NCBI GenBank assembly: GCA_032622095.1 | Contig: CP136066.1 | Location: 3,371,784-3,435,783 of the forward strand | DNA length: 64,000 nucleotides | Origin: Siphonodentalium dalli | Taxonomy: Eukaryota; Mollusca; Scaphopoda; Gadilida; Siphonodentaliidae | Direction of reading: 5' to 3' | Part shown: positions 7,044 through 64,000 of the stretch, one piece after another | How the letters are laid out: each line of letters opens with the position of its first letter | Position numbering within the stretch: the first letter of the stretch is position 1 | Notes under the pieces: model-generated | The model's database searches: none | What the model was told of the DNA's origin: nothing | What the model saw: the letters and a program-made list of their open reading frames with translations, nothing else | Translations under genes and position numbers: made by a program

Positions 7044-7070
7044 AGTATCCACCAGCTCAATCCGCAGTAT
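7044..7070. repeat. Left terminal array unit, truncated
   Basis: agtat at 7044-7048 is followed by a 22-bp unit at 7049-7070 (ccaccag joined directly to ctcaatccgcagtat). It lacks 23 internal bases, including the AT-rich core. Full-length units start at 7071. This marks the array boundary. Confidence 0.85.
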
Positions 7071-7559
7071 CCACCAGCCCAATAATATATATCGTTAACA
7101 CTCAATCCGCAGTATCCGCCAACCCAATAATATATATCGTTAACACTCAATCCGCAGTATCCGCCAGCCCAGTAATATATATCGTTAGCACTCAATACGC
7201 AGTATCCGCCAACCCAGTAATATATATCGTTAACACTCAATCCACAGTATCCGCCAGCCCAATAATATATATCGTTAACACTCAATCCGCAGTATCCGCC
7301 AACCCGATAATATATATCGTTAGCACTCAATCCGCAGTATCCGCCAACCCAGTAATATATATCGTTAACACTCAATCCACAGTATCCGCCAGCCCAATAA
7401 TATATATCGTTAACACTCAATACGCAGTATCCCCCGGCCCAATAATATATATCGTTAACACTCAATCCACATTATCCGCCAACCCAGTAATATATATCGT
7501 TAGCACTCAATACGCAGTATCCGCCAACCCGATAATATATATCGTTAGCACTCAATCCA

Positions 7560-7931
7560 CAGTATCCGCCAACCCAGTAATATATATCGTTAACACTCAA
7601 TCCGCAGTATCCGCCAGCCCAGTAATATATATCGTTAGCACTCAATCCACATTATCCGCCAACCCAGTAATATATATCGTTAACACTCAATCCGCATTAT
7701 CCGCCAGCCCAATAATATATATCGTTAACACTCAATCCGCAGTATCCGCCAACCCAGTAATATATATCGTTAACACTCAATCCGCAGTATCCGCCAGCCC
7801 AGTAATATATATCGTTAGCACTCAATCCACATTATCCGCCAACCCAGTAATATATATCGTTAACACTCAATCCGCATTATCCGCCAGCCCAATAATATAT
7901 ATCGTTAACACTCAATCCGCAGTATCCGCCA
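7560..7931. repeat. Perfect tandem duplication of a 4-unit (180-bp) block
   Basis: Bases 7561-7740 are identical to 7741-7920, including the order of cagtat and cattat units and of caaccc and cagccc units. Identity stops at 7559 versus 7739 and at 7932. Local unequal exchange is the simplest explanation. Confidence 0.9.
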
Positions 7932-9700
7932 GCCCAATAATATATATCGTTAACACTCAATCCACAGTATCCGCCAGCCCAGTAATATATATCGTTAGCA
8001 CTCAATCCGCAGTATCCACCAACCCAATAATATATATCGTTAACACTCAATCCGCAGTATCCGCCAGCCCAATAATATATATCGTTAACACTCAATCCGC
8101 AGTATCCACCAGCCCAGTAATATATATCGTTAACACTCAATACACAGTATCCGCCAACCCAGTAATATATATCGTTAGCACTCAATCCACAGTATCCGCC
8201 AACCCAATAATATATATCGTTAGCACTCAATCCGCAGTATCCGCCAACCCAGTAATATATATCGTTAGCACTCAATCCACAGTATCCACCAGCCCAATAA
8301 TATATATCGTTAGCACTCAATCCGCAGTATCCACCAACCCAATAATATATATCCTTAACACTCAATCCACAGTATCCGCCAACCCAGTAATATATATCGT
8401 TAGCACTCAATCCACAGTATCCGCCAACCCAGTAATATATATCGTTAACACTCAATCCACAGTATCCGCCAACCCAATAATATATATCGTTAGCACTCAA
8501 TCCACAGTATCCGCCAACCCAGTAATATATATCGTTAACACTCAATACGCAGTATCCGCCGGCCCAATAATATATATCGTTAGCACTCAATCCGCAGTAT
8601 CCGCCAACCCAGTAATATATATCGTTAACACTCAATCCGCAGTATCCGCCAGCCCAGTAATATATATCGTTAACACTCAATCCACAGTATCCGCCAGCCC
8701 AGTAATATATATCGTTAGCACTCAATCCACAGTATCCACCAACCCAGTAATATATATCGTTAACACTCAATTCACAGTATCCGCCAACCCAATAATATAT
8801 ATCGTTAACACTCAATCCGCATTATCCGCCAACCCAATAATATATATCGTTAACACTCAATCCACAGTATCCGCCAACCCAGTAATATATATCGTTAACA
8901 CTCAATCCCCAGTATCCGCCAGCCCAATAATATATATCGTTAACACTCAATCCGCAGTATCCGCCAACCCAATAATATATATCGTTAGCACTCAATCCGC
9001 AGTATCCACCAACCCAGTAATATATATCGTTAACACTCAATACGCAGTATCCGCCAACCCAGTAATATATATCGTTAGCACTCAATCCACAGTATCCGCC
9101 AACCCAGTAATATATATCGTTAGCACTCAATCCACATTATCCGCCAACCCAGTAATATATATCGTTAGCACTCAATCCGCAGTATCCGCCAACCCAGTAA
9201 TATATATCGTTAGCACTCAATCCGCATTATCCGCCAACCCAATAATATATATCGTTAGCACTCAATACACAGTATCCGCCAACCCAATAATATATATCGT
9301 TAGCACTCAATCAGCAGTATCCGCCAACCCAATAATATATATCGTTAGCACTCAATCCACAGTATCCGCCAACCCAGTAATATATATCGTTAGCACTCAA
9401 TCCGCAGTATCCGCCAACCCAGTAATATATATCGTTAGCACTCAATCCACAGTATCCGCCAACCCAGTAATATATATCGTTAACACTCAATCCCCAGTAT
9501 CCGCCAACCCAGTAATATATATCGTTAGCACTCAATCCGCATTATCCGCCAACCCAATAATATATATCGTTAGCACTCAATCCGCAGTATCCGCCAACCC
9601 AATAATATATATCGTTAACACTCAATCCGCAGTATCCGCCAACCCAATAATATATATCGTTAACACTCAATCCGCAGTATCCACCAACCCAGTAATATAT

Positions 9701-10690
9701 ATCGTTAGCACTCAATCCGCAGTATCCACCAACCCAGTAATATATATCGTTAGCACACAATCCACAGTATCCACCAACCCAGTAATATATATCGTTAACA
9801 CTCAATACGCAGTATCCGCCAACCCAGTAATATATATCGTTAGCACACAATCCACAGTATCCACCAACCCAGTAATATATATCGTTAGCACTCAATCCGC
9901 AGTATCCACCAACCCAGTAATATATATCGTTAGCACACAATCCACAGTATCCACCAACCCAGTAATATATATCGTTAGCACTCAATCAGCAGTATCCGCC
10001 AACCCAGTAATATATATCGTTAGCACTCAATCCGCAGTATCCACCAACCCAGTAATATATATCGTTAGCACTCAATCAGCAGTATCCGCCAACCCAGTAA
10101 TATATATCGTTAGCACACAATCCACAGTATCCGCCAACCCAATAATATATATCGTTAACACTCAATCCACAGTATCCGCCAACCCAATAATATATATCGT
10201 TAGCACTCAATCCGCAGTATCCACCAACCCAGTAATATATATCGTTAGCACACAATCCACAGTATCCACCAACCCAGTAATATATATCGTTAACACTCAA
10301 TACGCAGTATCCGCCAACCCAGTAATATATATCGTTAGCACACAATCCACAGTATCCACCAACCCAGTAATATATATCGTTAGCACTCAATCCGCAGTAT
10401 CCACCAACCCAGTAATATATATCGTTAGCACACAATCCACAGTATCCACCAACCCAGTAATATATATCGTTAGCACTCAATCAGCAGTATCCGCCAACCC
10501 AGTAATATATATCGTTAGCACTCAATCCGCAGTATCCACCAACCCAGTAATATATATCGTTAGCACTCAATCAGCAGTATCCGCCAACCCAGTAATATAT
10601 ATCGTTAGCACACAATCCACAGTATCCGCCAACCCAATAATATATATCGTTAACACTCAATCCACAGTATCCGCCAACCCAATAATATAT
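9701..10690. repeat. Perfect tandem duplication of an 11-unit (495-bp) block
   Basis: The segment 9701-10195 recurs at 10196-10690, tagged by the rare variant agcacacaatcc (normally agcactcaatcc) in several units and by ccacc and cagcag variants in the same order. The identity ends at about 10696, where taacac replaces tagcac. Confidence 0.85.
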
Positions 10691-13600
10691 ATCGTTAACA
10701 CTCAATCCACAGTATCCGCCAACCCAATACTATATATCGTTAGCACTCAATCCGCATTATCCGCCAGCCCAGTAATATATATCGTTAACACTCAATACAC
10801 AGTATCCGCCAACCCAATAATATATATCGTTAGCACTCAATCCGCATTATCCGCCAACCCAATAATATATATCGTTAGCACTCAATCCGCATTATCCGCC
10901 AACCCAATAATATATATCGTTAGCACTCAATACACAGTATCCGCCAACCCAATAATATATATCGTTAGCACTCAATCCGCAGTATCCGCCAACCCAATAA
11001 TATATATCGTTAGCACTCAATCCGCATTATCCGCCAACCCAATAATATATATCGTTAGCACTCAATCCGCAGTATCCGCCAACCCAGTAATATATATCGT
11101 TAGCACTCAATCCGCAGTATCCGCCAGCCCAATAATATATATCGTTAGCACTCAATACGCAGTATCCGCCAACCCAGTAATATATATCGTTAGCACTCAA
11201 TACACAGTATCCGCCAACCCAATAATATATATCGTTAGCACTCAATACGCATTATCCGCCAACCCAGTAATATATATCGTTAGCACTCAATACGCAGTAT
11301 CCGCCAACCCAGTAATATATATCGTTAACACTCAATCCGCAGTATCCGCCAACCCAGTAATATATATCGTTAGCACTCAATCCACAGTATCCGCCAACCC
11401 AATAATATATATCGTTAGCACTCAATCCACAGTATCCGCCAACCCAGTAATATATATCGTTAGCACTCAATACGCAGTATCCGCCAACCCAGTAATATAT
11501 ATCGTTAACACTCAATACACAGTATCCGCCAACCCAATAATATATATCGTTAGCACTCAATCCACAGTATCCGCCAACCCAGTAATATATATCGTTAGCA
11601 CTCAATACACAGTATCCGCCAACCCAATAATATATATCATTAACACTCAATCAACAGTATCCGCCAACCCAGTAATATATATCGTTAGCACTCAATACAC
11701 AGTATCCGCCAACCCAGTAATATATATCGTTAGCACTCAATACACAGTATCCGCCAACCCAGTAATATATATCGTTAGCACTCAATACGCAGTATCCGCC
11801 AACCCAGTAATATATATCGTTAACACTCAATACGCAGTATCCGCCAACCCAATAATATATATCGTTAACACTCAATCCGCATTATCCGCCAACCCAGTAA
11901 TATATATCGTTAGCACTCAATCCACATTATCCGCCAACCCAATAATATATATCGTTAACACTCAATACGCATTATCCGCCAACCCAATAATATATATCGT
12001 TAGCACTCAATCCACAGTATCCACCAACCCAATAATATATATCGTTAGCACTCAATCCGCATTATCCGCCAACCCAATAATATATATCGTTAGCACTCAA
12101 TCCACAGTATCCGCCAACCCAGTAATATATATCGTTAGCACTCAATCCACATTATCCCCCAACCCAGTAATATATATCGTTAGCACTCAATCCACAGTAT
12201 CCGCCAACCCAGTAATATATATCGTTAGCACTCAATCCACATTATCCGCCAACCCAATAATATATATCGTTAACACTCAATACGCATTATCCGCCAACCC
12301 AATAATATATATCGTTAACACTCAATACGCAGTATCCGCCAACCCAGTAATATATATCGTTAACACTCAATCCGCATTATCCGCCAACCCAATAATATAT
12401 ATCGTTAACACTCAATCCGCAGTATCCGCCAACCCAATAATATATATCGTTAGCACTCAATCCGCATTATCCGCCAACCCAATAATATATATCGTTAACA
12501 CTCAATCCACAGTATCCGCCAACCCAATAATATATATCGTTAGCACTCAATCCACAGTATCCGCCAACCCAGTAATATATATCGTTAGCACTCAATACGC
12601 AGTATCCGCCAACCCAGTAATATATATCGTTAACACTCAATCCGCAGTATCCGCCAACCCAGTAATATATATCGTTAGCACTCAATACACAGTATCCGCC
12701 AACCCAATAATATATATCGTTAGCACTCAATCCACAGTATCCGCCAACCCAGTAATATATATCGTTAGCACTCAATACACAGTATCCGCCAACCCAATAA
12801 TATATATCGTTAGCACTCAATCCACAGTATCCGCCAACCCAATAATATATATCGTTAGCACTCAATCCACAGTATCCGCCAACCCGGTAATATATATCGT
12901 TAGCACTCAATCCGCAGTATCCGCCAACCCAATAATATATATCGTTAGCACTCAATACACAGTATCCGCCAACCCAGTAATATATATCGTTAGCACTCAA
13001 TACGCAGTATCCGCCAACCCAGTAATATATATCGTTAACACTCAATACGCAGTATCCGCCAACCCAATAATATATATCGTTAGCACTCAATCCGCATTAT
13101 CCGCCAACCCAGTAATATATATCGTTAGCACTCAATCAACAGTATCCGCCAACCCAATAATATATATCGTTAGCACTCAATCCGCATTATCCGCCAACCC
13201 AGTAATATATATCGTTAACACTCAATACGCAGTATCCGCCAACCCAATAATATATATCGTTAGCACTCAATCCGCATTATCCGCCAACCCAATAATATAT
13301 ATCGTTAGCACTCAATACACAGTATCCGCCAACCCAATAATATATATCGTTAGCACTCAATCCACAGTATCCACCAACCCAATAATATATATCGTTAACA
13401 CTCAATCCGCAGTATCCGCCAACCCAATAATATATATCGTTAGCACTCAATCCGCAGTATCCGCCAACCCAATAATATATATCGTTAGCACTCAATACAC
13501 AGTATCCGCCAACCCAATAATATATATCGTTAGCACTCAATCCACAGTATCCGCCAACCCAGTAATATATATCGTTAGCACTCAATCCACAGTATCCGCC

Positions 13601-16600
13601 AACCCAGTAATATATATCGTTAGCACTCAATCCGCAGTATCCGCCAGCCCAATAATATATATCGTTAGCACTCAATCCGCATTATCCGCCAACCCAGTAA
13701 TATATATCGTTAGCACTCAATCCACAGTATCCGCCGGCCCAGTAATATATATCGTTAGCACTCAATACACAGTATCCGCCAACCCAATAATATATATCGT
13801 TAGCACTCAATACACAGTATCCGCCAACCCAATAATATATATCGTTAGCACTCAATCCACAGTATCCGCCAGCCCAATAATATATATCGTTAGCACTCAA
13901 TCCGCAGTATCCGCCGGCCCAGTAATATATATCGTTAACACTCAATACGCAGTATCCGCCAACCCAGTAATATATATCGTTAACACTCAATCCACAGTAT
14001 CCGCCAACCCAGTAATATATATCGTTAGCACTCAATCCGCATTATCCGCCAACCCAGTAATATATATCGTTAGCACTCAATACGCATTATCCGCCAACCC
14101 AGTAATATATATCGTTAGCACTCAATCCACAGTATCCGCCAACCCAGTAATATATATCGTTAGCACTCAATCCACAGTATCCGCCAACCCAGTAATATAT
14201 ATCGTTAGCACTCAATCCACAGTATCCGCCAACCTAATAATATATATCGTTAGCACTCAATCCACAGTATCCGCCAACCCAGTAATATATATCGTTAACA
14301 CTCAATCCACAGTATCCGCCAACCCAATAATATATATCGTTAACACTCAATCCGCAGTATCCGCCAACCCAGTAATATATATCGTTAGCACTCAATCCGC
14401 ATTATCCGCCAACCCAGTAATATATATCGTTAGCACTCAATACGCATTATCCGCCAACCCAGTAATATATATCGTTAGCACTCAATCCGCATTATCCGCC
14501 AACCCAGTAATATATATCGTTAGCACTCAATACGCATTATCCGCCAACCCAGTAATATATATCGTTAACACTCAATCCACATTATCCGCCAACCCAATAA
14601 TATATATCGTTAACACTCAATCCCCAGTATCCGCCAGCCCAGTAATATATATCGTTAACACTCAATCCACAGTATCCGCCAACCCAATAATATATATCGT
14701 TAACACTCAATCCGCAGTATCCGCCAACCCAATAATATATATCGTTAGCACTCAATACGCATTATCCGCCAACCCAGTAATATATATCGTTAACACTCAA
14801 TCAGCATTATCCGCCAACCCAGTAATATATATCGTTAGCACTCAATACACAGTATCCGCCAACCCAGTAATATATATCGTTAGCACTCAATCCGCAGTAT
14901 CCGCCAACCCAATAATATATATCGTTAACACTCAATCCACAGTATCCGCCAACCCAGTAATATATATCGTTAACACTCAATCCACAGTATCCGCCAACCC
15001 AATAATATATATCGTTAACACTCAATCCGCAGTATCCGCCAACCCAATAATATATATCGTTAACACTCAATCCACAGTATCCGCCAACCCAGTAATATAT
15101 ATCGTTAACACTCAATCCGCAGTATCCGCCAACCCAATAATATATATCGTTAGCACTCAATCCACAGTATCCGCCAACCCAGTAATATATATCGTTAGCA
15201 CTCAATACACAGTATCCGCCAACCCAATAATATATATCGTTAACACTCAATACGCAGTATCCGCCAACCCAATAATATATATCGTTAACACTCAATCCAC
15301 AGTATCCGCCAACCCAATAATATATATCGTTAACACTCAATCCGCAGTATCCGCCAACCCAATAATATATATCGTTAGCACTCAATCCACAGTATCCGCC
15401 AACCCTATAATATATATCGTTAGCACTCAATACGCAGTATCCGCCAACCCAATAATATATATCGTTAGCACTCAATCCACAGTATCCGCCAACCCAATAA
15501 TATATATCGTTAGCACTCAATACACAGTATCCGCCAACCCAGTAATATATATCGTTAACACTCAATCCACAGTATCCGCCAACCCAATAATATATATCGT
15601 TAGCACTCAATACACAGTATCCGCCAACCCAGTAATATATATCGTTAGCACTCAATCCACAGTATCCGCCAACCCAGTAATATATATCGTTAGCACTCAA
15701 TCCGCATTATCCGCCAACCCAATAATATATATCGTTAGCACTCAATCCACAGTATCCGCCAACCCAATAATATATATCGTTAGCACTCAATCCGCATTAT
15801 CCGCCAACCCAGTAATATATATCGTTAGCACTCAATCCACAGTATCCGCCAACCCAGTAATATATATCGTTAGCACTCAATCCACAGTATCCGCCAACCC
15901 AGTAATATATATCGTTAACACTCAATCCACAGTATCCGCCAACCCAATAATATATATCGTTAGCACTCAATACGCAGTATCCGCCAGCCCAGTAATATAT
16001 ATCGTTAGCACTCAATCCGCAGTATCCGCCAACCCAATAATATATATCGTAAACACTCAATCCGCATTATCCGCCAACCCAATAATATATATCGTTAACA
16101 CTCAATACACAGTATCCGCCAACCCAGTAATATATATCGTTAGCACTCAATCCGCATTATCCGCCAACCCAATAATATATATCGTTAACACTCAATACGC
16201 AGTATCCGCCAACCCAGTAATATATATCGTTAGCACTCAATCCGCATTATCCGCCAACCCAATAATATATATCGTTAACACTCAATACGCAGTATCCGCC
16301 AACCCAGTAATATATATCGTTAGCACTCAATCCACAGTATCCGCCAGCCCAATAATATATATCGTTAACACTCAATCCACAGTATCCGCCAACCCAGTAA
16401 TATATATCGTTAACACTCAATCCGCAGTATCCGCCAACCCAATAATATATATCGTTAACACTCAATCCGCAGTATCCGCCAACCCAGTAATATATATCGT
16501 TATCACTCAATACGCAGTATCCGCCAACCCAGTAATATATATCGTTAGCACTCAATCAGCATTATCCGCCAACCCAGTAATATATATCGTTAGCACTCAA

Positions 16601-17539
16601 TACACAGTATCCGCCAACCCAGTAATATATATCGTTAGCACTCAATCCACAGTATCCGCCAACCCAATAATATATATCGTTAGCACTCAATCCACAGTAT
16701 CCGCCAACCCAATAATATATATCGTTAGCACTCAATCCGCATTATCCGCCAACCCAATAATATATATCGTTAACACTCAATCCGCAGTATCCGCCAACCC
16801 AATAATATATATCGTTAGCACTCAATCCGCAGTATCCGCCAACCCAATAATATATATCGTTAGCACTCAATCCGCAGTATCCGCCAACCCAGTAATATAT
16901 ATCGTTAGCACTCAATACACAGTATCCGCCAACCCAATAATATATATCGTTAGCACTCAATCCGCAGTATCCGCCAACCCAGTAATATATATCGTTAGCA
17001 CTCAATCCGCAGTATCCGCCAACCCAGTAATATATATCGTTAGCACTCAATCCGCAGTATCCGCCAACCCAATAATATATATCGTTAACACTCAATCCGC
17101 AGTATCCGCCAACCCAATAATATATATCGTTAACACTCAATCCACATTATCCGCCAACCCAATAATATATATCGTTAGCACTCAATCCGCATTATCCGCC
17201 AACCCTATAATATATATCGTTAGCACTCAATCCACATTATCCGCCAACCCTATAATATATATCGTTAGCACTCAATCCGCAGTATCCGCCAACCCAATAA
17301 TATATATCGTTAACACTCAATCCGCAGTATCCGCCAACCCAATAATATATATCGTTAACACTCAATCCACATTATCCGCCAACCCAATAATATATATCGT
17401 TAGCACTCAATCCGCATTATCCGCCAACCCTATAATATATATCGTTAGCACTCAATCCACATTATCCGCCAACCCAATAATATATATCGTTAGCACTCAA
17501 TCCGCAGTATCCGCCAACCCAGTAATATATATCGTTAGC

Positions 17540-18370
17540 ACTCAATCCGCAGTATCTCCGCCAACCCAATAATATATATCGTTAACACACAATCCACAGT
17601 ATCCGCCAACCCAATAATATATATCGTTAGCACTCAATCCACAGTATCCGCCAACCCAGTAATATATATCGTTAGCACTCAATCCACAGTATCCGCCAAC
17701 CCAGTAATATATATCGTTAGCACTCAATCCGCAGTATCCGCCAACCCAATAATATATATCGTTAACACTCAATACGCAGTATCCGCCAACCCAGTAATAT
17801 ATATCGTTAGCACTCAATCCGCAGTATCCGCCAACCCAGTAATATATATCGTTAGCACTCAATCTGCATTATCCGCCAGCCCAATGATATATATCGTTAG
17901 CACTCAATACACAGTATCCGCCAACCCAATAATATATATCGTTAGCACTCAATCCACAGTATCCGCCAACCCAGTAATATATATCATTAGCACTCAATCC
18001 GCAGTATCCGCCAACCCAATAATATATATCGTTAGCACTCAATCCACAGTATCCGCCAACCCAGTAATATATATCGTTAGCACTCAATCCGCAGTATCCG
18101 CCAACCCAGTAATATATATCGTTAGCACTCAATCCGCAGTATCCGCCAACCCTATAATATATATCGTTAGCACTCAATCCGCAGTATCCGCCAACCCTAT
18201 AATATATATCGTTAGCACTCAATCCGCAGTATCCGCCAACCCAGTAATATATATCGTTAGCACTCAATCCGCAGTATCTCCGCCAACCCAATAATATATA
18301 TCGTTAACACACAATCCACAGTATCCGCCAACCCAATAATATATATCGTTAACACTCAATCAGCAGTATC
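17540..18370. repeat. Two junctions sharing a 2-bp insertion, 16 units apart
   Basis: Both 17551-17562 and 18273-18284 read agtatctccgcc instead of agtatccgcc, an extra ct or tc. Each is followed by a unit with the rare taacacacaatcc variant. They are 722 bp apart (16 units plus 2 bp). Shared rare variants at both sites imply one ancestral event later copied by block duplication. Each insertion shifts the unit phase and breaks both open frames. Confidence 0.85.
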
Positions 18371-21300
18371 CGCCAACCCAATAATATATATCGTTAGCAC
18401 TCAATCCGCAGTATCCGCCAACCCAGTAATATATATCGTTAGCACTCAATCCGCAGTATCCGCCAACCCTATAATATATATCGTTAGCACTCAATCCGCA
18501 GTATCCGCCAACCCAGTACTATATATCGTTAACACTCAATCCACATTATCCGCCAACCCAATAATATATATCGTTAGCACTCAATCAGCAGTATCCGCCA
18601 ACCCAGTAATATATATCGTTAGCACTCAATCCGCAGTATCCGCCAACCCAGTAATATATATCGTTAGCACTCAATCCGCAGTATCCGCCAACCCAATAAT
18701 ATATATCGTTAACACTCAATCCACAGTATCCGCCAACCCAATAATATATATCGTTAGCACTCAATCCACAGTATCCGCCAACCCAGTAATATATATCGTT
18801 AGCACTCAATCCACATTATCCGCCAACCCAATAATATATATCGTTAGCACTCAATCCGCATTATCCGCCAACCCAGTAATATATATCGTTAGCACTCAAT
18901 CCGCAGTATCCGCCAACCCAATAATATATATCGTTAGCACTCAATCCGCAGTATCCGCCAACCCAGTAATATATATCGTTAACACTCAATCCGCATTATC
19001 CGCCAACCCAATAATATATATCGTTAACACTCAATCCACAGTATCCGCCAACCCAGTAATATATATCGTTAGCACTCAATCCGCATTATCCGCCAACCCA
19101 GTAATATATATCGTTAGCACTCAATCCGCATTATCCGCCAACCCAGTAATATATATCGTTAGCACTCAATACGCAGTATCCGCCAACCCAATAATATATA
19201 TCGTTAGCACTCAATACGCATTATCCGCCAACCCAGTAATATATATCGTTAACACTCAATCCGCATTATCCGCCAACCCAGTAATATATATCGTTAGCAC
19301 TCAATCCGCAGTATCCGCCAACCCAATAATATATATCGTTAGCACTCAATCCGCAGTATCCGCCAACCCAGTAATATATATCGTTAACACTCAATCCGCA
19401 TTATCCGCCAACCCAATAATATATATCGTTAACACTCAATCCACAGTATCCGCCAACCCAGTAATATATATCGTTAGCACTCAATCCGCATTATCCGCCA
19501 ACCCAGTAATATATATCGTTATCACTCAATACGCAGTATCCGCCAACCCAGTAATATATATCGTTAGCACTCAATCCGCAGTATCCGCCAACCCAATAAT
19601 ATATATCGATAGCACTCAATCCGCAGTATCCGCCAACCCAATAATATATATCGATAGCACTCAATCCACAGTATCCGCCAGCCCAATAATATATATCGTT
19701 AACACTCAATACGCATTATCCGCCAACCCAATAATATATATCGTTAGCACTCAATCCGCATTATCCGCCAACCCAATAATATATATAGTTAGCACTCAAT
19801 CCGCAGTATCCGCCAACCTAATAATATATATCGTTAGCACTCAATACACAGTATCCGCCAGCCCAGTAATATATATCGTTAGCACTCAATCCGCATTATC
19901 CGCCAACCCAGTAATATATATCGTTAACACTCAATCCACAGTATCCGCCAACCCAGTAATATATATCGTTAGCACTCAATCCGCATTATCCGCCAACCCA
20001 GTAATATATATCGTTAACACTCAATCCACAGTATCCGCCAACCCAATAATATATATCGTTAGCACTCAATCCACAGTATCCGCCAACCCAATAATATATA
20101 TCGTTAACACTCAATACGCAGTATCCGCCAACCCAATAATATATATCGTTAGCACTCAATCCGCATTATACGCCAACCCAGTAATATATATCGTTAGCAC
20201 TCAATCCACAGTATCCGCCAACCCAGTAATATATATCGTTAGCACTCAATCCACAGTATCCGCCAACCCAATAATATATATCGTTAGCACTCAATCAACA
20301 GTATCCGCCAACCCAGTAATATATATCGTTAGCACTCAATCCGCATTATCCACCAGCCCAGTAATATATATCGTTAGCACTCAATCCGCATTATCCGCCA
20401 ACCCAATAATATATATCGTTAACACTCAATCCGCAGTATCCGCCAACCCAGTAATATATATCGTTAGCACTCAATCCACAGTATCCGCCAACCCAATAAT
20501 ATATATCGTTAACACTCAATCCGCAGTATCCGCCAACCCAGTAATATATATCGTTAACACTCAATACGCAGTATCCGCCAACCCAGTAATATATATCGTT
20601 AGCACTCATTCCACAGTATCCGCCAACCCAGTAATATATATCGTTAGCACTCAATCCGCAGTAGCCGCCAGCCCAATAATATATATCGTTAACACTCAAT
20701 CCGCAGTATCCGCCAACCCAATAATATATATCGTTAGCACTCAATACGCAGTATCCGCCAACCCAGTAATATATATCGTTAGCACTCAATCCACAGTATC
20801 CGCCAACCCAATAATATATATCGTTAGCACTCAATCCACAGTATCCGCCAACCCAGTAATATATATCGTTAACACTCAATCCACAGTATCCGCCAACCCA
20901 GTAATATATATCGTTAACACTCAATCCACAGTATCCGCCAACCCAATAATATATATCGTTAGCACTCATTCCACAGTATCCGCCAACCCAGTAATATATA
21001 TCGTTAGCACTCAATCCACAGTATCCGCCAACCCAGTAATATATATCGTTAGCACTCAATCCGCAGTATCCACCAACCCAGTAATATATATCGTTAGCAC
21101 TCAATCCGCAGTATCCGCCAACCCAGTAATATATATCGTTAGCACTCAATCCGCAGTATCCGCCAACCCAATAATATATATCGTTAGCACTCAATCCGCA
21201 TTATCCGCCAACCCAGTAATATATATCGTTAACACTCAATCCGCATTAGCCGCCAGCCCAATAATATATATCGTTAACACTCAATCCGCAGTATCCGCCA

Positions 21301-35200: not shown

Positions 35201-37576
35201 CGCCAGCCCAGTAATATATATCGTTAACACTCAATACGCAGTATCCGCCAACCCAATAATATATATCGTTAGCACTCAATCCACAGTATCCGCCAGCCCA
35301 GTAATATATATCGTTAGCACTCAATCCACAGTATCCGCCAGCCCAATAATATATATCGTTAGCACTCAATCCGCAGTATCCACCAGCCCAGTAATATATA
35401 TCGTTAACACTCAATCCACAGTATCCGCCAGCCCAGTAATATATATCGTTAGCACTCAATCCACAGTATCCGCCAGCCCAGTAATATATATCGTTAACAC
35501 TCAATCCACAGTATCCGCCAGCCCAATAATATATATCGTTAGCACTCAATCCGCAGTATCCGCCAACCCAATAATATATATCGTTAGCACTCAATCCGCA
35601 GTATCCACCAGCCCAGTAATATCGTTAACACTCAATCCACAGTATCCGCCAGCCCAGTAATATATATCGTTAGCACTCAATCCACAGTATCCGCCAGCCC
35701 AGTAATATATATCGTTAACACTCAATCCACAGTATCCGCCAGCCCAATAATATATATCGTTAGCACTCAATCCGCAGTATCCGCCAGCCCAATAATATAT
35801 ATCGTTAACACTCAATACGCAGTATCCGCCTACCCAGTAATATATATCGTTAGCACTCAATCCGCAGTATCCACCAGCCCAATAATATATATCGTTAGCA
35901 CTCAATCCGCAGTATCCACCAGCCCAGTAATATATATCGTTAACACTCAATCCACAGTATCCGCCAGCCCAGTAATATATATCGTTAGCACTCAATCCAC
36001 AGTATCCGCCAGCCCAGTAATATATATCGTTAACACTCAATCCACAGTATCCGCCAGCCCAGTAATATATATCGTTAACACTCAATACGCAGTATCCGCC
36101 AACCCAGTAATATATATCGTTAACACTCAATCCACAGTATCCGCCAACCCAGTAATATATATCGTTAACACTCAATCCACAGTATCCGCCAGCCCAGTAA
36201 TATATATCGTTAACACTCAATCCACAGTATCCACCAGCCCAGTAATATATATCGTTAACACTCAATCCACAGTATCCGCCAGCCCAGTAATATATATCGT
36301 TAGCACTCAATCCACAGTATCCGCCAGCCCAGTAATATATATCGTTAACACTCAATCCACAGTATCCGCCAGCCCAGTAATATATATCGTTAACACTCAA
36401 TACGCAGTATCCGCCAACCCAGTAATATATATCGTTAGCACTCAATCCACAGTATCCGCCAACCCAGTAATATATATCGTTAGCACTCAATACGCAGTAT
36501 CCGCCAACCCAATAATATATATCGTTAGCACTCAATCCACAGTATCCGCCAACCCAGTAATATATATCGTTAGCACTCAATCCGCAGTATCCACCAACCC
36601 AGTAATATATATCGTTAACACTCAATACGCAGTATCCGCCAACCCAGTAATATATATCGTTAGCACTCAATACGCAGTATCCGCCAACCCAATAATATAT
36701 ATCGTTAACACTCAATCCGCAGTATCCGCCAACCCAGTAATATATATCGTTAACACTCAATACGCAGTATCCGCCAACCCAATAATATATATCGTTAACA
36801 CTCAATCCGCAGTATCCGCCAACCCAGTAATATATATCGTTAGCACTCAATCCGCAGTATCCACCAACCCAGTAATATATATCGTTAGCACTCAATCCGC
36901 AGTATCCGCCATCCCAGTAATATATATCGTTAGCACTCAATCCGCAGTATCCACCAGCCCAGTAATATATATCGTTAGCACTCAATCCACAGTATCCGCC
37001 AGCCCAGTAATATATATCGTTAGCACTCAATCCACAGTATCCGCCAGCCCAGTAATATATATCGTTAGCACTCAATCCGCAGTATCCGCCAACCCAATAA
37101 TATATATCGTTAACACTCAATACGCAGTATCCGCCAACCCAGTAATATATATCGTTAGCACTCAATCCGCAGTATCCGCCAACCCAGTAATATATATCGT
37201 TAACACTCAATACGCAGTATCCGCCAACCCAGTAATATATATCGTTAGCACTCAATCCGCAGTATCCGCCAACCCAGTAATATATATCGTTAGCACTCAA
37301 TACGCAGTATCCGCCGGCCCAATAATATATATCGTTAGCACTCAATCCGCAGTATCCGCCAACCCAATAATATATATCGTTAACACTCAATACGCAGTAT
37401 CCGCCAACCCAATAATATATATCGTTAGCACTCAATCCACAGTATCCGCCAGCCCAGTAATATATATCGTTAGCACTCAATCCGCAGTATCCGCCAACCC
37501 AGTAATATATATCGTTAGCACTCAATCCACAGTATCCGCCAACCCAATAATATATATCGTTAGCACTCAATCCGCA
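32271..37576. repeat. Array domain rich in cagccc units and poor in cattat units
   Basis: Across about 118 units I found cattat only near 33304, 34024, 34653 and 34793 before it reappears near 37577; cagccc (position 7 = g) is unusually common. Its sharpest part, 35591-37570, has none in 44 consecutive units, which is why the minus-strand frame stays open there for 659 codons. Elsewhere, for example 40261-42700, nearly half the units carry cattat. A 7-unit block (34951-35265) is repeated almost identically at 35266-35580. This looks like a locally homogenised subfamily. Confidence 0.75.
35611..35630. repeat. Unit with 4-bp deletion in the TA core
   Basis: The core reads taatatcgtt instead of taatatatatcgtt, moving the unit phase from 10 to 6 (mod 45). 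TA-dinucleotide slippage is the obvious mechanism. The same change is found at three other sites. Confidence 0.9.
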
Positions 37577-51590: not shown

Positions 51591-53095
51591 CAATACACAG
51601 TATCCGCCAACCCAGTAATATATATCGATAGCACTCAATACGCAGTATCCGCCAACCCAATAATATATATCGTTAGCACTCAATACGCAGTATCCGCCAA
51701 CCCAATAATATATATCGTTAGCACTCAATACGCATTATCCGCCAACCCAGTAATATATATCGTTAGCACTCAATCCGCATTATCCACCAGCCCAGTAATA
51801 TATATCGTTAGCACTCAATACGCAGTATCCACCAGCCCAATAATATATATCGTTAACACTCAATACACAGTATCCGCCAACCCAATAATATATATCGTTA
51901 ACACTCAATACGCAGTATCCACCAGCCCAATAATATATATCGTTAGCACTCAATACACAGTATCCGCCAACCCAATAATATATATCGTTAGCACTCAATC
52001 CGCGTTATCCGCCAACCCAGTAATATATATCGTTAACACTCAATACGCAGTATCCACCAGCCCAATAATATATATCGTTAACACTCAATACGCAGTATCC
52101 ACCAGCCCAATAATATATATCGTTAGCACTCAATCCGCAGTATCCGCCAGCCCAATAATATATATCGTTAGCACTCAATCCGCAGTATCCGCCAACCCAA
52201 TAATATATATCGTTAACACTCAATCCGCAGTATCCGCCAGCCCAATAATATATATCGTTAGCACTCAATCCACAGTATCCGCCAACCCAATAATATATAT
52301 CGTTAACACTCAATCCGCAGTATCCGCCAACCCAATAATATATATCGTTAGCACTCAATCCGCATTATCCGCCAACCCAGTAATATATATCGTTAACACT
52401 CAATCCGCAGTATCCGCCAACCCAATAATATATATCGTTAGCACTCAATCCGCAGTATCCGCCAACCCAATAATATATATCGTTAGCACTCAATACCCAG
52501 TATCCGCCAACCCAATAATATATATCGTTAGCACTCAATCCGCATTATCCGCCAGCCCAATAATATATATCGTTAGCACTCAATCCACAGTATCCACCAA
52601 CCCAGTAATATATATCGTTAACACTCAATCCGCAGTATCCGCCAACCCAATAATATATATCGTTAGCACTCAATCCGCAGTATCCGCCAACCCAGTAATA
52701 TATATCGTTAGCACTCAATCCGCAGTATCCACCAACCCAGTAATATATATCGTTAGCACTCAATCCGCATTATCCGCCAACCCAATAATATATATCGTTA
52801 ACACTCAATACGCAGTATCCGCCAACCCAATAATATATATCGTTAGCACTCAATCCGCAGTATCCGCCAACCCAGTAATATATATCGTTAGCACTCAATC
52901 CCCAGTATCCGCCAACCCAGTAATATATATCGTTAGCACTCAATCCGCAGTATCCGCCAACCCAATAATATATATCGTTAACACTCAATACACATTATCC
53001 GCCAACCCAATAATATATATCGTTAACACTCAATCCGCATTATCCGCCAACCCAGTAATATATATCGTTAGCACTCAATCCGCAGTATCCGCCAA

Positions 53096-53115
53096 CCCAA
53101 TAATATCGTTAGCAC
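53096..53115. repeat. Unit with 4-bp deletion in the TA core (last indel in the window)
   Basis: taatatcgttagcac replaces the full core and moves the phase from 34 to 30 (mod 45). From here to 64000 I find no further length change, about 242 units. Confidence 0.85.
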
Positions 53116-55980
53116 TCAATCCGCAGTATCCACCAACCCAGTAATATATATCGTTAACACTCAATCCACAGTATCCGCCAACCCAATAATATATATCGTT
53201 AACACTCAATCCACAGTATCCGCCAACCCAATAATATATATCGTTAACACTCAATCCGCAGTATCCGCCAACCCAATAATATATATCGTTAGCACTCAAT
53301 CAGCAGTATCCGCCAACCCAGTAATATATATCGTTAGCACTCAATCCGCAGTATCCGCCAACCCAATAATATATATCGTTAGCACTCAATACACAGTATC
53401 CGCCAACCCAATAATATATATCGTTAGCACTCAATACGCAGTATCCGCCAACCCAATAATATATATCGTTAGCACTCAATACACAGTATCCGCCAACCCA
53501 ATAATATATATCGTTAGCACTCAATACGCATTATCCGCCAACCCAGTAATATATATCGTTAGCACTCAATCCGCAGTATCCGCCAACCCAATAATATATA
53601 TCGTTAGCACTCAATACACAGTGTCCGCCAACCCAGTAATATATATCGTTAGCACTCAATCCACATTATCCGCCAACCCAGTAATATATATCGTTAGCAC
53701 TCAATACACAGTATCCGCCAACCCAGTAATATATATCGTTAACACTCAATACACAGTATCCGCCAACCCAATAATATATATCGTTAGCACTCAATCCACA
53801 TTATCCGCCAACCCAGTAATATATATCGTTAGCACTCAATCCGCAGTATCCACCAACCCAGTAATATATATCGTTAGCACTCAATCCGCAGTATCCACCA
53901 ACCCAGTAATATATATCGTTAACACTCAATACACAGTGTCCGCCAACCCAGTAATATATATCGTTAGCACTCAATACGCATTATCCGCCAACCCAATAAT
54001 ATATATCGTTAGCACTCAATACACAGTGTCCGCCAACCCAGTAATATATATCGTTAGCACTCAATACGCATTATCCGCCAACCCAGTAATATATATCGTT
54101 AGCACTCAATCCGCAGTATCCACCAACCCAATAATATATATCGTTAGCACTCAATACGCAGTATCCGCCAACCCAATAATATATATCGTTAGCACTCAAT
54201 ACACAGTATCCGCCAACCCAATAATATATATCGTTAACACTCAATACACAGTATCCGCCAACCCAATAATATATATCGTTAGCACTCAATCCACAGTATC
54301 CACCAACCCAATAATATATATCGTTAACACTCAATCCACAGTATCCGCCAACCCAGTAATATATATCGTTATCACTCAATACACAGTATCCGCCAACCCA
54401 GTAATATATATCGTTAGCACTCAATCCACAGTATCCACCAGCCCAGTAATATATATCGTTAACACTCAATACACAGTATCCGCCAACCCGATAATATATA
54501 TCGTTAGCACTCAATCCACAGTATCCACCAACCCAGTAATATATATCGTTAGCACTCAATCCGCATTATCCGCCAACCCAATAATATATATCGTTAACAC
54601 TCAATCCACAGTATCCACCAACCCAGTAATATATATCGTTAGCACTCAATCCGCAGTATCCGCCAACCCAATAATATATATCGTTAGCACTCAATCCACA
54701 GTATCCGCCAACCTAATAATATATATCGTTAGCACTCAATCCACAGTATCCGCCAACCCAGTAATATATATCGTTAACACTCAATCCGCAGTATCCGCCA
54801 ACCCAGTAATATATATCGTTAACACTCAATCCGCATTATCCGCCAACCCAGTAATATATATCGTTAACACTCAATCCCCAGTATCCACCAACCCAGTAAT
54901 ATATATCGTTAGCACTCAATCAGCAGTATCCGCCAACCCAGTAATATATATCGTTAGCACTCAATCCACAGTATCCGCCAACCTAATAATATATATCGTT
55001 AGCACTCAATCCACAGTATCCGCCAACCCAGTAATATATATCGTTAGCACTCAATCCACAGTATCCGCCAACCCAGTAATATATATCGTTAGCACTCAAT
55101 CAGCAGTATCCGCCAACCCAGTAATATATATCGTTAGCACTCAATCCACAGTATCCGCCAACCCAATAATATATATCGTTATCACTCAATCAGCAGTATC
55201 CACCAACCCAATAATATATATCGTTAGCACTCAATCAGCAGTATCCGCCAACCCAGTAATATATATCGTTAGCACTCAATCCGCAGTATCCGCCAACCCA
55301 ATAATATATATCGTTAGCACTCAATCAGCATTATCCGCCAACCCAGTAATATATATCGTTAGCACTCAATCAGCAGTATCCACCAACCCGATAATATATA
55401 TCGTTAACACTCAATCCACATTATCCGCCAACCCAATAATATATATCGTTAACACTCAATCCACAGTATCCGCCAACCCAGTAATATATATCGTTAACAC
55501 TCAATACGCAGTATCCACCAACCCAATAATATATATCGTTAACACTCAATCAGCATTATCCGCCAACCCAATAATATATATCGTTATCACTCAATACACA
55601 GTATCCGCCAACCCAGTAATATATATCGTTAACACTCAATCAGCATTATCCGCCAACCCAGTAATATATATCGTTAGCACTCAATCCGCATTATCCGCCA
55701 ACCCAGTAATATATATCGTTAACACTCAATCCGCAGTATCCGCCAACCCAATAATATATATCGTTAGCACTCAATCCGCAGTATCCGCCAACCCAGTAAT
55801 ATATATCGTTAACACTCAATACACAGTATCCGCCAACCCAATAATATATATCGTTAGCACTCAATCCGCAGTATCCGCCAACCCAGTAATATATATCGTT
55901 AACACTCAATCCGCAGTATCCGCCAACCCAATAATATATATCGTTAGCACTCAATACACAGTATCCGCCAACCCAATAAT

Positions 55981-56130
55981 ATATATCATTAGCACTCAAT
56001 CCGCAGTATCCGCCAACCCAATAATATATATCATTAGCACTCAATCCACATTATCCACCAACCCAATAATATATATCATTAGCACTCAATCCACAGTATC
56101 CGCCAACCCAGTAATATATATCATTAGCAC
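55981..56130. repeat. Four consecutive units with the rare tcatta variant
   Basis: tcattagcac occurs at 55986, 56031, 56076 and 56121, in adjacent units that otherwise differ at positions 3, 12, 39 and 42. The private CpG-loss variant has spread to neighbours without carrying the rest of the unit. Confidence 0.85.
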
Positions 56131-59100
56131 TCAATCCGCATTATCCGCCAACCCAGTAATATATATCGTTAGCACTCAATCCACAGTATCCGCCAACCCA
56201 ATAATATATATCGTTAACACTCAATCCGCATTATCCGCCAACCCAGTAATATATATCGTTAGCACTCAATCCGCATTATCCGCCAACCCAGTAATATATA
56301 TCGTTAGCACTCAATACGCAGTATCCGCCAACCCAATAATATATATCGTTAGCACTCAATCCACAGTATCCGCCAACCCAATAATATATATCGTTAGCAC
56401 TCAATCCGCAGTATCCGCCAACCCAATAATATATATCGTTAACACTCAATCCGCAGTATCCGCCAACCCAGTAATATATATCGTTAGCACTCAATCCACA
56501 GTATCCGCCAACCCAATAATATATATCGTTAGCACTCAATCCGCAGTATCCGCCAACCCAATAATATATATCGTTAACACTCAATCAGCATTATCCGCCA
56601 ACCCAGTAATATATATCGTTAGCACTCAATCCGCAGTATCCGCCAACCCAATAATATATATCGTTAACACTCAATCCACAGTATCCGCCAACCCAATAAT
56701 ATATATCGTTAGCACTCAATCCGCATTATCCGCCAACCCAATAATATATATCGTTAGCACTCAATCAGCAGTATCCGCCAACCCAATAATATATATCGTT
56801 AGCACTCAATCCACAGTATCCACCAACCCAATAATATATATCGTTAGCACTCAATCCACAGTATCCGCCAACCCAGTAATATATATCGTTAGCACTCAAT
56901 CCGCAGTATCCGCCAACCCAATAATATATATCGTTAACACTCAATCCACAGTATCCGCCAACCCAATAATATATATCGTTAGCACTCAATCCGCATTATC
57001 CGCCAACCCAATAATATATATCGTTAGCACTCAATCAGCAGTATCCGCCAACCCAATAATATATATCGTTAACACTCAATCCACAGTATCCGCCAACCCA
57101 ATAATATATATCGTTAGCACTCAATCCACAGTATCCACCAGCCCAATAATATATATCGTTAGCACTCAATCAGCAGTATCCGCCAACCCAGTAATATATA
57201 TCGTTAACACTCAATCCGCATTATCCGCCAACCCAATAATATATATCGTTAGCACTCAATCCGCAGTATCCGCCAACCCAATAATATATATCGTTAACAC
57301 TCAATCCGCAGTATCCGCCAACCCAGTAATATATATCGTTAGCACTCAATACACAGTATCCGCCAACCCAGTAATATATATCGTTAGCACTCAATCCACA
57401 GTATCCGCCAACCCAGTAATATATATCGTTAACACTCAATCCGCAGTATCCGCCAACCCAGTAATATATATCGTTAGCACTCAATCCGCAGTATCCGCCA
57501 ACCCAATAATATATATCGTTAACACTCAATCCACAGTATCCGCCAACCCAATAATATATATCGTTAACACTCAATCCGCATTATCCGCCAGCCCAGTAAT
57601 ATATATCGTTAACACTCAATCCGCAGTATCCGCCAACCCAATAATATATATCGTTAACACTCAATCCACAGTATCCGCCAACCCAATAATATATATCGTT
57701 AACACTCAATCCGCATTATCCGCCAGCCCAGTAATATATATCGTTAACACTCAATCCGCAGTATCCGCCAACCCAATAATATATATCGTTAGCACTCAAT
57801 CCGCAGTATCCACCAACCCAGTAATATATATCGTTAGCACTCAATACACAGTATCCGCCAACCCAGTAATATATATCGTTAGCACTCAATCCACAGTATC
57901 CGCCAACCCAATAATATATATCGTTAACACTCAATCCGCAGTATCCGCCAACCCAGTAATATATATCGTTAGCACTCAATACGCAGTATCCGCCAACCCA
58001 ATAGTATATATCGTTAGCACTCAATCCACAGTATCCGCCAACCCAGTAATATATATCGTTAGCACCCAATCCGCAGTATCCGCCAACCCAGTAATATATT
58101 ACGTTAACACTCAATCCGCAGTATCCGCCAACCCAATAATATATATCGTTAACACTCAATACGCAGTATCCACCAACCCAATAATATATATCGTTAGCAC
58201 TCAATACGCAGTATCCACCAACCCAATAATATATATCGTTAGCACTCAATCCACATTATCCGCCGGCCCAATAATATATATCGTTAACACTCAATCCACA
58301 GTATCCGCCAGCCCAATAATATATATCGTTAGCACTCAATCCACATTATCCGCCAACCCAGTAATATATATCGTTAACACTCAATCCGCAGTATCCGCCA
58401 GCCCAATAATATATATCGTTAACACTCAATCCACATTATCCGCCAACCCAGTAATATATATCGTTAGCACTCAATCCACAGTATCCGCCAACCCAGTAAT
58501 ATATATCGTTAACACTCAATCCGCAGTATCCGCCAGCCCAGTAATATATATCGTTAGCACTCAATCCGCAGTATCCACCAACCCAGTAATATATATCGTT
58601 AGCACTCAATCCGCAGTATCCGCCAACCCAATAGTATATATCGTTAGCACTCAATCCACAGTATCCGCCAACCCAGTAATATATATCGTTAGCACTCAAT
58701 CCACATTATCCGCCAACCCAGTAATATATATCGTTAACACTCAATCCACAGTATCCGCCAGCCCAATAATATATATCGTTAACACTCAATCAGCAGTATC
58801 CGCCAACCCAATAATATATATCGTTAGCACTCAATCCGCAGTATCCGCCAACCCAGTAATATATATCGTTAGCACTCAATCCGCAGTATCCGCCAGCCCA
58901 GTAATATATATCGTTAGCACTCAATCAGCATTATCCACCAGCACAATAATATATATCGTTAGCACTCAATCAGCAGTATCCGCCAACCCAATAATATATA
59001 TCGTTAACACTCAATCAGCAGTATCCGCCAACCCAATAATATATATCGTTAGCACTCAATCCGCAGTATCCGCCAGCCCAATAATATATATCGTTAGCAC

Positions 59101-62100
59101 TCAATCAGCATTATCCACCAGCCCAATAATATATATCGTTAGCACTCAATCCGCAGTATCCGCCAACCCAGTAATATATATCGTTAGCACTCAATCCGCA
59201 GTATCCACCAGCCCAATAATATATATCGTTAGCACTCAATCAGCATTATCCACCAGCACAATAATATATATCGTTAGCACTCAATCCGCAGTATCCGCCA
59301 GCCCAGTAATATATATCGTTAACACTCAATCAGCAGTATCCGCCAACCCAATAATATATATCGTTAGCACTCAATCAGCAGTATCCGCCAACCCAATAAT
59401 ATATATCGTTAGCACTCAATCCGCAGTATCCGCCAACCCAGTAATATATATCGTTAACACTCAATACGCATTACCCGCCAACCCAGTAATATATATCGTT
59501 AACACTCAATCCGCAGTATCCGCCAACCCTATAATATATATCGTTAGCACTCAATCCGCATTATCCGCCAACCCAATAATATATATCGTTAACACTCAAT
59601 CCGCAGTATCCGCCAACCCTATAATATATATCGTTAACACTCAATCCGCAGTATCCGCCAACCCAGTAATATATATCGTTAGCACTCAATCCGCAGTATC
59701 CGCCAACCCAGTAATATATATCGTTAACACTCAATACACAGTATCCGCCAGCCCAATAATATATATCGTTATCACTCAATCCACAGTATCCGCCAACCCA
59801 GTAATATATATCGTTAACACTCAATCCGCAGTATCCGCCAACCCAATAATATATATCGTTAGCACTCAATCCGCAGTATCCGCCAACCCAATAATATATA
59901 TCGTTAGCACTCAATCCACAGTATCCGCCTGCCCAGTAATATATATCGTTAACACTCAATACACAGTATCCGCCAACCCAATAATATATATCGTTAACAC
60001 TCAATCCGCATTATCCGCCAACCCAGTAATATATATCGTTAGCACTCAATCCGCAGTATCCGCCAACCCAATAATATATATCGTTAGCACTCAATCCACA
60101 GTATCCGCCTGCCCAGTAATATATATCGTTAACACTCAATCCCCAGTATCCGCCAGCCCAGTAATATATATCGTTAGCACTCAATCCACAGTATCCGCCA
60201 ACCCAGTAATATATATCGTTAACACTCAATACGCAGTATCCGCCAACCCAGTAATATATATCGTTAACACTCAATCCACAGTATCCGCCAACCCAGTAAT
60301 ATATATCGTTAACACTCAATACGCAGTATCCGCCAACCCAGTAATATATATCGTTAACACTCAATACGCATTATCCGCCAACCCAATAATATATATCGTT
60401 AGCACTCAATCCACAGTATCCGCCAACCCAATAATATATATCGTTAGCACTCAATACACAGTATCCGCCAACCCAGTAATATATATCGTTAGCACTCAAT
60501 CCACAGTATCCGCCAACCCAGTAATATATATCGTTAGCACTCAATCCACAGTATCCGCCAACCCAGTAATATATATCGTTAACACTCAATCCACAGTATC
60601 CGCCAGCCCAATAATATATATCGTTAACACTCAATCCGCAGTATCCGCCAACCTAATAATATATATCGTTAGCACTCAATACGCAGTATCCGCCAACCCA
60701 GTAATATATATCGTTAACACTCAATCCACAGTATCCGCCAGCCCAATAATATATATCGTTAACACTCAATCCGCAGTATCCGCCAACCTAATAATATATA
60801 TCGTTAGCACTCAATACACAGTATCCGCCAACCCAGTAATATATATCGTTAACACTCAATCCGCAGTATCCGCCAACCCAGTAATATATATCGTTAGCAC
60901 TCAATCCACAGTATCCGCCAACCCAGTAATATATATCGTTAGCACTCAATACGCAGTATCCGCCAACCCAATAATATGTATCGTTAGCACTCAATCCGCA
61001 GTATCCGCCAACCCAGTAATATATATCGTTAGCACTCAATCCACAGTATCCGCCAACCTAATAATATATATCGTTAGCACTCAATCCGCAGTATCCGCCA
61101 ACCTAATAATATATATCGTTAACACTCAATCCGCAGTATCCACCAACCCAATAATATATATCGTTAACACTCAATCCGCAGTATCCGCCAGCCCAGTAAT
61201 ATATATCGTTAACACTCAATCCGCAGTATCCGCCAACCCAGTAATATATATCGTTAACACTCAATACGCAGTATCCGCCAACCCAGTAATATATATCGTT
61301 AGCACTCAATACACAGTATCCGCCAACCCAATAATATATATCGTTAACACTCAATCCGCAGTATCCGCCAACCCAATAATATATATCGTTAGCACTCAAT
61401 CAGCATTATCCGCCAACCCAGTAATATATATCGTTAGCACTCAATCCGCAGTATCCACCAGCCCAGTAATATATATCGTTAGCACTCAATCCGCAGTATC
61501 CGCCAACCCAATAATATATATCGTTAGCACTCAATCAGCATTATCCGCCAACCCAGTAATATATATCGTTAGCACTCAATCCGCAGTATCCACCAGCCCA
61601 GTAATATATATCGTTAACACTCAATACGCAGTATCCGCCAACCCAGTAATATATATCGTTAGCACTCAATCCGCATTATCCGCCAACCCAATAATATATA
61701 TCGTTAGCACTCAATCCACAGTATCCACCAGCCCAGTAATATATATCGTTAGCACTCAATCCGCAGTATCCGCCAACCCAATAATATATATCGTTAGCAC
61801 TCAATCCGCAGTATCCGCCAACCCAATAATATATATCGTTAGCACTCAATCCGCAGTATCCGCCAACCCAATAATATATATCGTTAGCACTCAATCCACA
61901 GTATCCGCCAGCCCAATAATATATATCGTTAGCACTCAATCCGCAGTATCCGCCAACCCAGTAATATATATCGTTAACACTCAATCCGCAGTATCCACCA
62001 GCCCAGTAATATATATCGTTAGCACTCAATCCGCAGTATCCGCCAACCCAGTAATATATATCGTTAGCACTCAATACACAGTATCCGCCGGCCCAATAAT

Positions 62101-62160
62101 ATATATCGTTAGCACTCAATCCGCAGTATCCGCCAACCCAGTAATATATATCGTTAGCAC

Positions 62161-62520
62161 TCAATCCACATTATCCGCCAACCCAATAATATATATCGTT
62201 AACACTCAATCCGCAGTATCCACCAACCCAGTAATATATATCGTTAGCACTCAATCCACATTATCCGCCAACCCAATAATATATATCGTTAACACTCAAT
62301 CCGCAGTATCCGCCAACCCAGTAATATATATCGTTAGCACTCAATCCACATTATCCGCCAACCCAATAATATATATCGTTAACACTCAATCCGCAGTATC
62401 CGCCAACCCAGTAATATATATCGTTAGCACTCAATCCACATTATCCGCCAACCCAATAATATATATCGTTAACACTCAATCCGCAGTATCCGCCAACCCA
62501 GTAATATATATCGTTAACAC
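62161..62520. repeat. 2-unit (90-bp) higher-order repeat, four copies
   Basis: An aatccacattatccgcc unit alternates with an aatccgcagtatccgcc unit, starting at 62161, 62251, 62341 and 62431. There is one difference (ccacc in the first copy). It is the cleanest dimer run in the array. Confidence 0.85.
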
Positions 62521-62929
62521 TCAATCCGCAGTATCCGCCAACCCAGTAATATATATCGTTAGCACTCAATACGCAGTATCCGCCAACCCAGTAATATATA
62601 TCGTTAACACTCAATCCGCAGTATCCGCCAACCCAGTAATATATATCGTTATCACTCAATCCGCATTATCCGCCAACCCAATAATATATATCGTTAACAC
62701 TCAATCCACAGTATCCGCCAACCCAATAATATATATCGTTAGCACTCAATACGCAGTATCCGCCAACCCAATAATATATATCGTTAGCACTCAATCCGCA
62801 GTATCCGCCAACCCAATAATATATATCGTTAGCACTCAATCCGCAGTATCCGCCAACCCAATAATATATATCGTTAGCACTCAATACGCAGTATCCGCCA
62901 ACCCAGTAATATATATCGTTAGCACTCAA

Positions 62930-63800
62930 TCCGCAGTATCCACCAGCCCAATAATATATATCGTTAGCACTCAATCCACAGTATCCGCCAGCCCAGTAAT
63001 ATATATCGTTAGCACTCAATCCACAGTATCCGCCAACCCAGTAATATATATCGTTAACACTCAATCCGCATTATCCACCAGCCCAGTAATATATATCGTT
63101 AGCACTCAATACGCAGTATCCGCCAACCCAATAATATATATCGTTAACACTCAATCCACAGTATCCGCCAGCCCAGTAATATATATCGTTAACACTCGAT
63201 CCACAGTATCCGCCAACCCAATAATATATATCGTTAGCACTCGATCAGCAGTATCCGCCAACCCAATAATATATATCGTTAACACTCAATCCGCATTATC
63301 CGCCAGCCCAATAATATATATCGTTAGCACTCAATCCGCAGTATCCGCCAACCCAGTAATATATATCGTTAGCACTCAATACGCAGTATCCGCCAACCCA
63401 GTAATATATATCGTTAGCACTCAATCCACAGTATCCGCCAACCCAATAATATATATCGTTAGCACTCAATCAGCAGTATCCGCCAACCCAATAATATATA
63501 TCGTTAGCACTCAATACGCATTATCCGCCAGCCCAGTAATATATATCGTTAGCACTCAATCCGCAGTATCCACCAGCCCAATAATATATATCGTTAACAC
63601 TCAATCCACAGTATCCGCCAGCCCAGTAATATATATCGTTAGCACTCAATCCACAGTATCCGCCAACCCAGTAATATATATCGTTAACACTCAATCCGCA
63701 TTATCCACCAGCCCAGTAATATATATCGTTAGCACTCAATACGCAGTATCCGCCAACCCAATAATATATATCGTTAACACTCAATCCACAGTATCCGCCA
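62930..63800. repeat. Block of about 5 units repeated 14 units (630 bp) apart
   Basis: The distinctive unit aatccgcattatccaccagc occurs at about 63066 and 63696. It is flanked in both places by the same order of ccaccagc, cagccc and tacgcag units (62930-63170 versus 63560-63800), with few differences. Confidence 0.7.
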
Positions 63801-64000
63801 ACCCAGTAATATATATCGTTAGCACTCAATCCACATTATCCGCCAACCCAGTAATATATATCGTTAACACTCAATCCACAGTATCCGCCAACCCAGTAAT
63901 ATATATCGTTAACACTCAATCCACAGTATCCGCCAACCCAATAATATATATCGTTAACACTCAATCCGCAGTATCCGCCAACCCAGTAATATATATCGTT

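Follow-up and report, generated by a model that had tools for sequence, protein, structure and literature searches.

A 69-kb single-locus minisatellite with unit variation suggestive of gene conversion and local duplication

Tandem arrays are usually attributed to unequal crossing-over, and arrays that separate this process from gene conversion are few because their units are too alike or lie in higher-order repeats. Which processes, then, would keep a pure array of 45-bp units homogeneous at most of its sites and polymorphic at a few? The locus considered here was studied as one haplotype in a window of 64,000 bp (G000:C6:3,371,784-3,435,783) from a 2.23-Gb, nine-contig assembly. Within this window, Tandem Repeats Finder gives a period of 45 from 7056 to 64000, with 1,265.9 copies, 93% matches and 0% indels. 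Continuing 16 kb past the window places the full array at G000:C6 ~3,378,827-3,448,203, a length of 69.4 kb or ~1,542 units, with its right end ~12.4 kb past the window edge at extended coordinate ~76,420. The first-pass annotation had described a long, pure 45-bp array, which is borne out by the copy number and by the lack of other DNA inside; its further statement that the array has no end on the right proves to be an effect of the window edge. The features that define the array are as follows.

7044..7055, + strand: partial first unit AGTATCCACCAG, forming an abrupt left boundary, as read in the sequence
7056..64000, running on to extended coordinate ~76,420 (G000:C6 ~3,448,203), + strand: 45-bp tandem array with consensus CTCAATCCGCAGTATCCGCCAACCCAATAATATATATCGTTAGCA
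35588..35680, + strand: 4-bp deletion in the (AT)n core of a unit, with more at ~51,323, ~51,589, ~53,115 and ~76,150 (the last outside the window)

A unit-by-unit walk through the window and the next 16 kb found 1,538 units in register, 4 indel-bearing units and no foreign insertion. Small indels in the whole array number nine (five of -4, two of +2, one of -9 and one of -1), and the 4-bp deletion recurs in different unit contexts. Base composition does not change along the array: GC is 41%, and the + strand has a GC skew near -0.5 from end to end. Left-edge units are no less clean than mid-array ones, and at the right edge just the last two deviate. Folding of either strand of the unit was no better than that of shuffles; no hairpin was found by this comparison, and a unit driven by hairpin formation was rejected.

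The distribution of the unit in the genome defines the class of the array. Pattern searches of the accessible sequence of the assembly, which reach copies up to about 10% diverged, returned 933 matches for a 65-bp pattern (at most 3 mismatches), all forward and all 933 in the locus. A 30-bp pattern matched 1,534 times genome-wide and 1,534 times at the locus, while 1,536 of the 1,538 matches to a degenerate 26-bp pattern fell there, the other two being possibly chance hits or isolated relatives. No opposite-strand match to the unit was found in these searches of the 2.23-Gb assembly. Because the patterns match essentially only here and in one orientation, the array is one single-locus minisatellite and not a chromosome-wide or centromere-type satellite; its 45-bp unit lies inside the class range of about 9-100 bp, with essentially all matches at one locus. 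A genome-wide or centromeric satellite was rejected, the unit not being spread over many loci or several chromosomes by pattern search. Such a satellite had been implied in the first-pass annotation by its suggestion of CENP-A ChIP and FISH; against it stand the unique locus, its place on a 233-Mb contig whose end is 3.4 Mb away, and the abundance of unrelated minisatellites in the genome. The accompanying remark that no known satellite family was recognised is in keeping with a literature text search using four words of the unit, in which no publication with a match was found.

Among the scored genome matches, the 314 bp to the left and the ~920 bp to the right of the array have no second copy. 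Beyond these unique flanks lie fragments of dispersed repeats and LINE pieces, the left one ending near 6,730. A repeat internal to a transposon, for example in a Helitron-like element, was likewise rejected, since by the scored matches the adjoining flanks do not come from a dispersed element. Further out on the left, a dispersed repeat present in dozens of copies has its end at 6,230 to ~6,730, and the short open stretches at 5271-5705 and 5965-6225 look by eye like C-terminal ends of LINE reverse transcriptases; a Pfam search of both gave nothing above cut-off. Window positions 1-250 (also L025 ~7,440-7,800) hold a dispersed repeat whose 69-bp palindrome, GCCAATGCATTCTCTTATATATGCGAG..., is near-perfect; at least 40 copies of 98-100% identity are spread over all nine contigs. 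This repeat has spread recently, and related copies lie on both sides of the 45-bp array.

The array belongs to a kind that is common in this genome and is set apart by its length. Sampled pieces are rich in unrelated minisatellites, which occupy about 15% of the sampled bases overall: tandem repeats with a period of at least 10 make up 16% of bases in 20 random 4.5-kb pieces, 9% in 40 random 600-bp pieces and 18% in 20 pieces near the locus, with units of 23, 37, 43, 46, 52, 55, 57 and 73 bp, among others. Most minisatellites that were measured are 1-4 kb long: those followed come to about 1.1 to 1.7 kb, and two extend past 3.5-4 kb; the 45-bp array is at least ten times as long as most other minisatellites sampled. 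Two further minisatellites lie in the window itself, an unrelated one with a 23-bp unit (3933-5220, 56 copies) and one with a 41-bp unit (1232-1537, 7.5 copies). Elsewhere, a 23-bp minisatellite at L122 (G000:C5 ~9,999,860-10,001,425) has 68 copies with 99% identity and is far more homogeneous than the 45-bp array, a contrast useful for turnover rates. An array with a 1,357-bp unit fills the entire 4.5-kb sample L061 (G000:C9:110,000,000-110,004,499). Transfer RNA genes also occur in tandem. In one amplified array, at G000:C8:185,996,000-186,051,000, more than 30 equal-scoring copies follow at intervals of ~1,511 bp; other groups lie at C4:190.3 Mb and, spaced ~1.3 kb apart, at C4:252.64 Mb.

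A period of 45 corresponds to 15 codons, and one forward frame, QSAVSANPIIYIVST, remains open in stretches of 3,519, 5,799, 2,722, 2,531 and 3,643+ codons, which would be compatible with a giant repetitive protein. This sole open forward frame is interrupted by the 4-bp deletions in the (AT)n core. However, in 90% of trials with a dinucleotide-shuffled unit a forward frame was open as well, the common variants at all seven polymorphic sites of the unit alter the encoded residue, and eight of the nine indels, with lengths not divisible by three, shift the frame. The lone Pfam match is weak and below its family's cut-off, and no credible domain was recognized. A protein-coding repeat exon was rejected for want of purifying selection on the frame, with neither frame-preserving indels as a rule nor a synonymous excess, and the giant protein is scarcely credible.

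Classical minisatellites are single-locus arrays with interspersed variant units, and variation inside the 45-bp array has this form. Seven sites of the unit (7, 9, 12, 18, 22, 27 and 43) are bi-allelic with minor-allele frequencies of 12-47%; the remaining 38 are nearly fixed, with every variant under 5% and 0.53% variants per base. The earlier description of the unit was incomplete in this respect, as the division into seven bi-allelic and 38 nearly fixed sites adds structure that it did not include. The 253 distinct unit types follow one another in near-random order, and allele frequencies are broadly alike along the 69 kb, sites 18 and 22 varying most. The seven sites are almost in linkage equilibrium even inside 45 bp. 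Mean r2 within units is 0.024 at distances up to 5 bp, 0.003 (0.0028) at 6-15 bp and 0.0015 beyond, with a chance level of 0.00065. Of all pairs, 18-22 (r=0.26) and 9-12 (r=-0.20) are linked most strongly. Short-distance linkage is uneven, 7-12 and 22-27 being near zero despite these two. Neighbouring units are weakly similar (same-site r2 of 0.010 at lags of 1-3 units, 0.0024 at lag 10), and this similarity fades over ~10 units.

Recent duplication in the array is local. Exact runs of at least five units number 11, every one at a lag of no more than 45 units; their lengths range from 5 to 30 units and their lags from 3 to 45, and runs never reach five when the units are shuffled. The longest, found at lag 45, covers 30 units and 1,416 bp, and the next longest is under 500 bp. 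No long block recurring at a distance was found in the array by the exact-run search. Two examples of local duplication are:

9711..10650, + strand: a recent local duplication in which 10 successive units recur unchanged 11 units further on
17541..18310, + strand: twin units with a +2 (TC) insertion, 722 bp apart, the footprint of a local 16-unit block duplication

A higher-order repeat or rolling-circle amplification was rejected, given that there are no long-range periodic copies and that autocorrelation fades by ~10 units. Isolated changes inside the recent duplicates were sought and none was found, in a search without the power to reveal conversion directly.

Could the alleles look shuffled with no exchange at all? 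Were the seven sites mutation hot spots that flip in place, near linkage equilibrium and uniform allele frequencies over 69 kb would be expected, and a 4-bp deletion that reappears in several unlike contexts would fit as well. The closest pairs of sites, 2-4 bp apart, are nevertheless significantly linked (chi2 15, 58 and 107), and the linkage fades with distance as it would under exchange. Hot spots alone are disfavoured because recurrent mutation would by itself give no distance-fading linkage. Moreover, two of the seven sites are C/A and G/T transversions, and the 30-unit exact duplicate contains 0 changes in 210 site comparisons. Flipping in place is therefore an improbable source of the pattern.

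Tandem arrays are a known weak spot of assemblies, and part of the array could in principle be an assembly or base-calling artefact, with a wrong length or context-dependent noise. Noise, however, would leave no 30-unit exact duplicate, and the variants lie at seven sites instead of occurring everywhere. Because of the linkage pattern and the exact runs, the latter of which do not arise in shuffles, the variation is read as real sequence. The longest exact internal repeats are short enough, at 1,416 bp and then less than 500 bp, that ordinary long reads could place every unit. An artefact is on these grounds quite improbable.

The first-pass annotation had proposed rapid turnover by unequal exchange, and the local duplications it presupposes are real, as the exact runs of 5-30 units attest; what does not hold in simulation is that block duplication and deletion alone could suffice. 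Unequal crossing-over as the single process that built and homogenised the array accounts for the recent local block duplications, and the ~10-unit decay of neighbour similarity matches about one round of small-block duplication. Its consequences were followed in simulated arrays of 1,538 units, which started as two haplotypes in complete linkage and were kept at constant size, for a few parameter sets with two replicates each. Block duplication and deletion at mean block sizes of 3, 10, 45 and 150 units either left linkage high, or made neighbouring units strongly correlated and created distant runs in numbers from hundreds to thousands, or eliminated the polymorphism. From linked haplotypes, r2 at up to 5 bp was 0.1-0.9, in contrast to the observed 0.024; the other outcomes compare with an observed neighbour correlation of 0.010 and an observed count of 0 long-range runs. 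These block-only simulations cover part of the parameter ranges and starting states, and within that scope they make unequal crossing-over alone an unlikely explanation.

A second process that mixes alleles at sub-unit scale across the array fits better than block turnover alone in these models. Short-tract copying with donors drawn from the whole array reached the observed linkage at roughly 10-30 events per unit, and restricting donors to at most 100 units produced excess regional differentiation. When local duplication of about four units was included as well, the run counts, the neighbour correlation and the variance among regions all came near those observed. One such simulation combined array-wide conversion at 20 per unit and a tract of 20 bp with local duplication at 20 copies per unit and a mean block of 4. 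One of its two replicates gave linkage of 0.022 / 0.0013 / 0.0013 versus the observed 0.024 / 0.0028 / 0.0015, and neighbour r2 of 0.0104 at lag 1 and 0.0108 at lag 3 (observed 0.0104 and 0.0104). The same replicate had 11 near and 0 far runs, the observed tally in this comparison being 9 and 0. In the second replicate, short-range linkage was lower, at 0.008. The simulations thus favour array-wide gene conversion, short of proof; the conversion step is deduced from them, and some other process that mixes alleles could lead to identical statistics.

Taken together, the locus is a non-coding single-locus minisatellite of exceptional length that probably evolves by gene conversion and local duplication. 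In this model, small blocks of units would be duplicated or deleted locally, and short tracts would frequently be copied between far-apart units, that is, by gene conversion. The partners in this copying might be sister chromatids or homologues aligned out of register, with synthesis-dependent strand annealing as one possible route. Acting together, the two processes would keep most sites homogeneous and leave a few old polymorphisms scattered along the array. No organismal function is proposed for the array, and parsimony favours its having none.

Human hypervariable minisatellites are far shorter than the 45-bp array (about 1,540 units, 69 kb). Those of the MS32, MS205 and CEB1 type resemble it in occupying a single locus, in their units of 9-100 bp, in their interspersed variants and in being non-coding; they differ in having GC-rich units, whereas the unit here is AT-mixed (41% GC). 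For the autosomal MS32, MS205 and CEB1, mutation has been proposed to proceed through gene conversion of the synthesis-dependent strand annealing type (PMC2599865). Mutants of MSY1, on the human Y, show length changes of 1-3 units and isometric switches of unit type, explained by sister-chromatid conversion through synthesis-dependent strand annealing (PMC2599865). MSY1 would thus share with the 45-bp array both inferred processes, small length change and unit switching by conversion. It is built of 48-118 units of 25 bp with a predicted hairpin and variants in blocks, whereas the 45-bp array has no hairpin, 1,540 units and interspersed variants. Satellites of the alpha type are similar to the array in being long, pure and head-to-tail with homogenised units; in contrast to them, the array has one locus, one orientation, a short unit, no higher-order repeat and a position near a contig end. 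Overall, the locus fits the known minisatellite picture of MSY1, MS32, MS205 and CEB1 at much larger size.

For annotation, the locus shows why caution is needed: what looks like a 57-kb 'satellite' with open frames of 5,800 codons can be one local non-coding minisatellite. A bolder and more tentative reading is that short-tract conversion across the array is extreme, such that on a ~10 bp scale polymorphisms are already near linkage equilibrium, and that the array might serve as a natural recombination recorder separating conversion from unequal crossover. With ~1,540 units, each bearing seven independent markers, in one contiguous haplotype, it gives direct statistical access to how fast the two processes run relative to each other.
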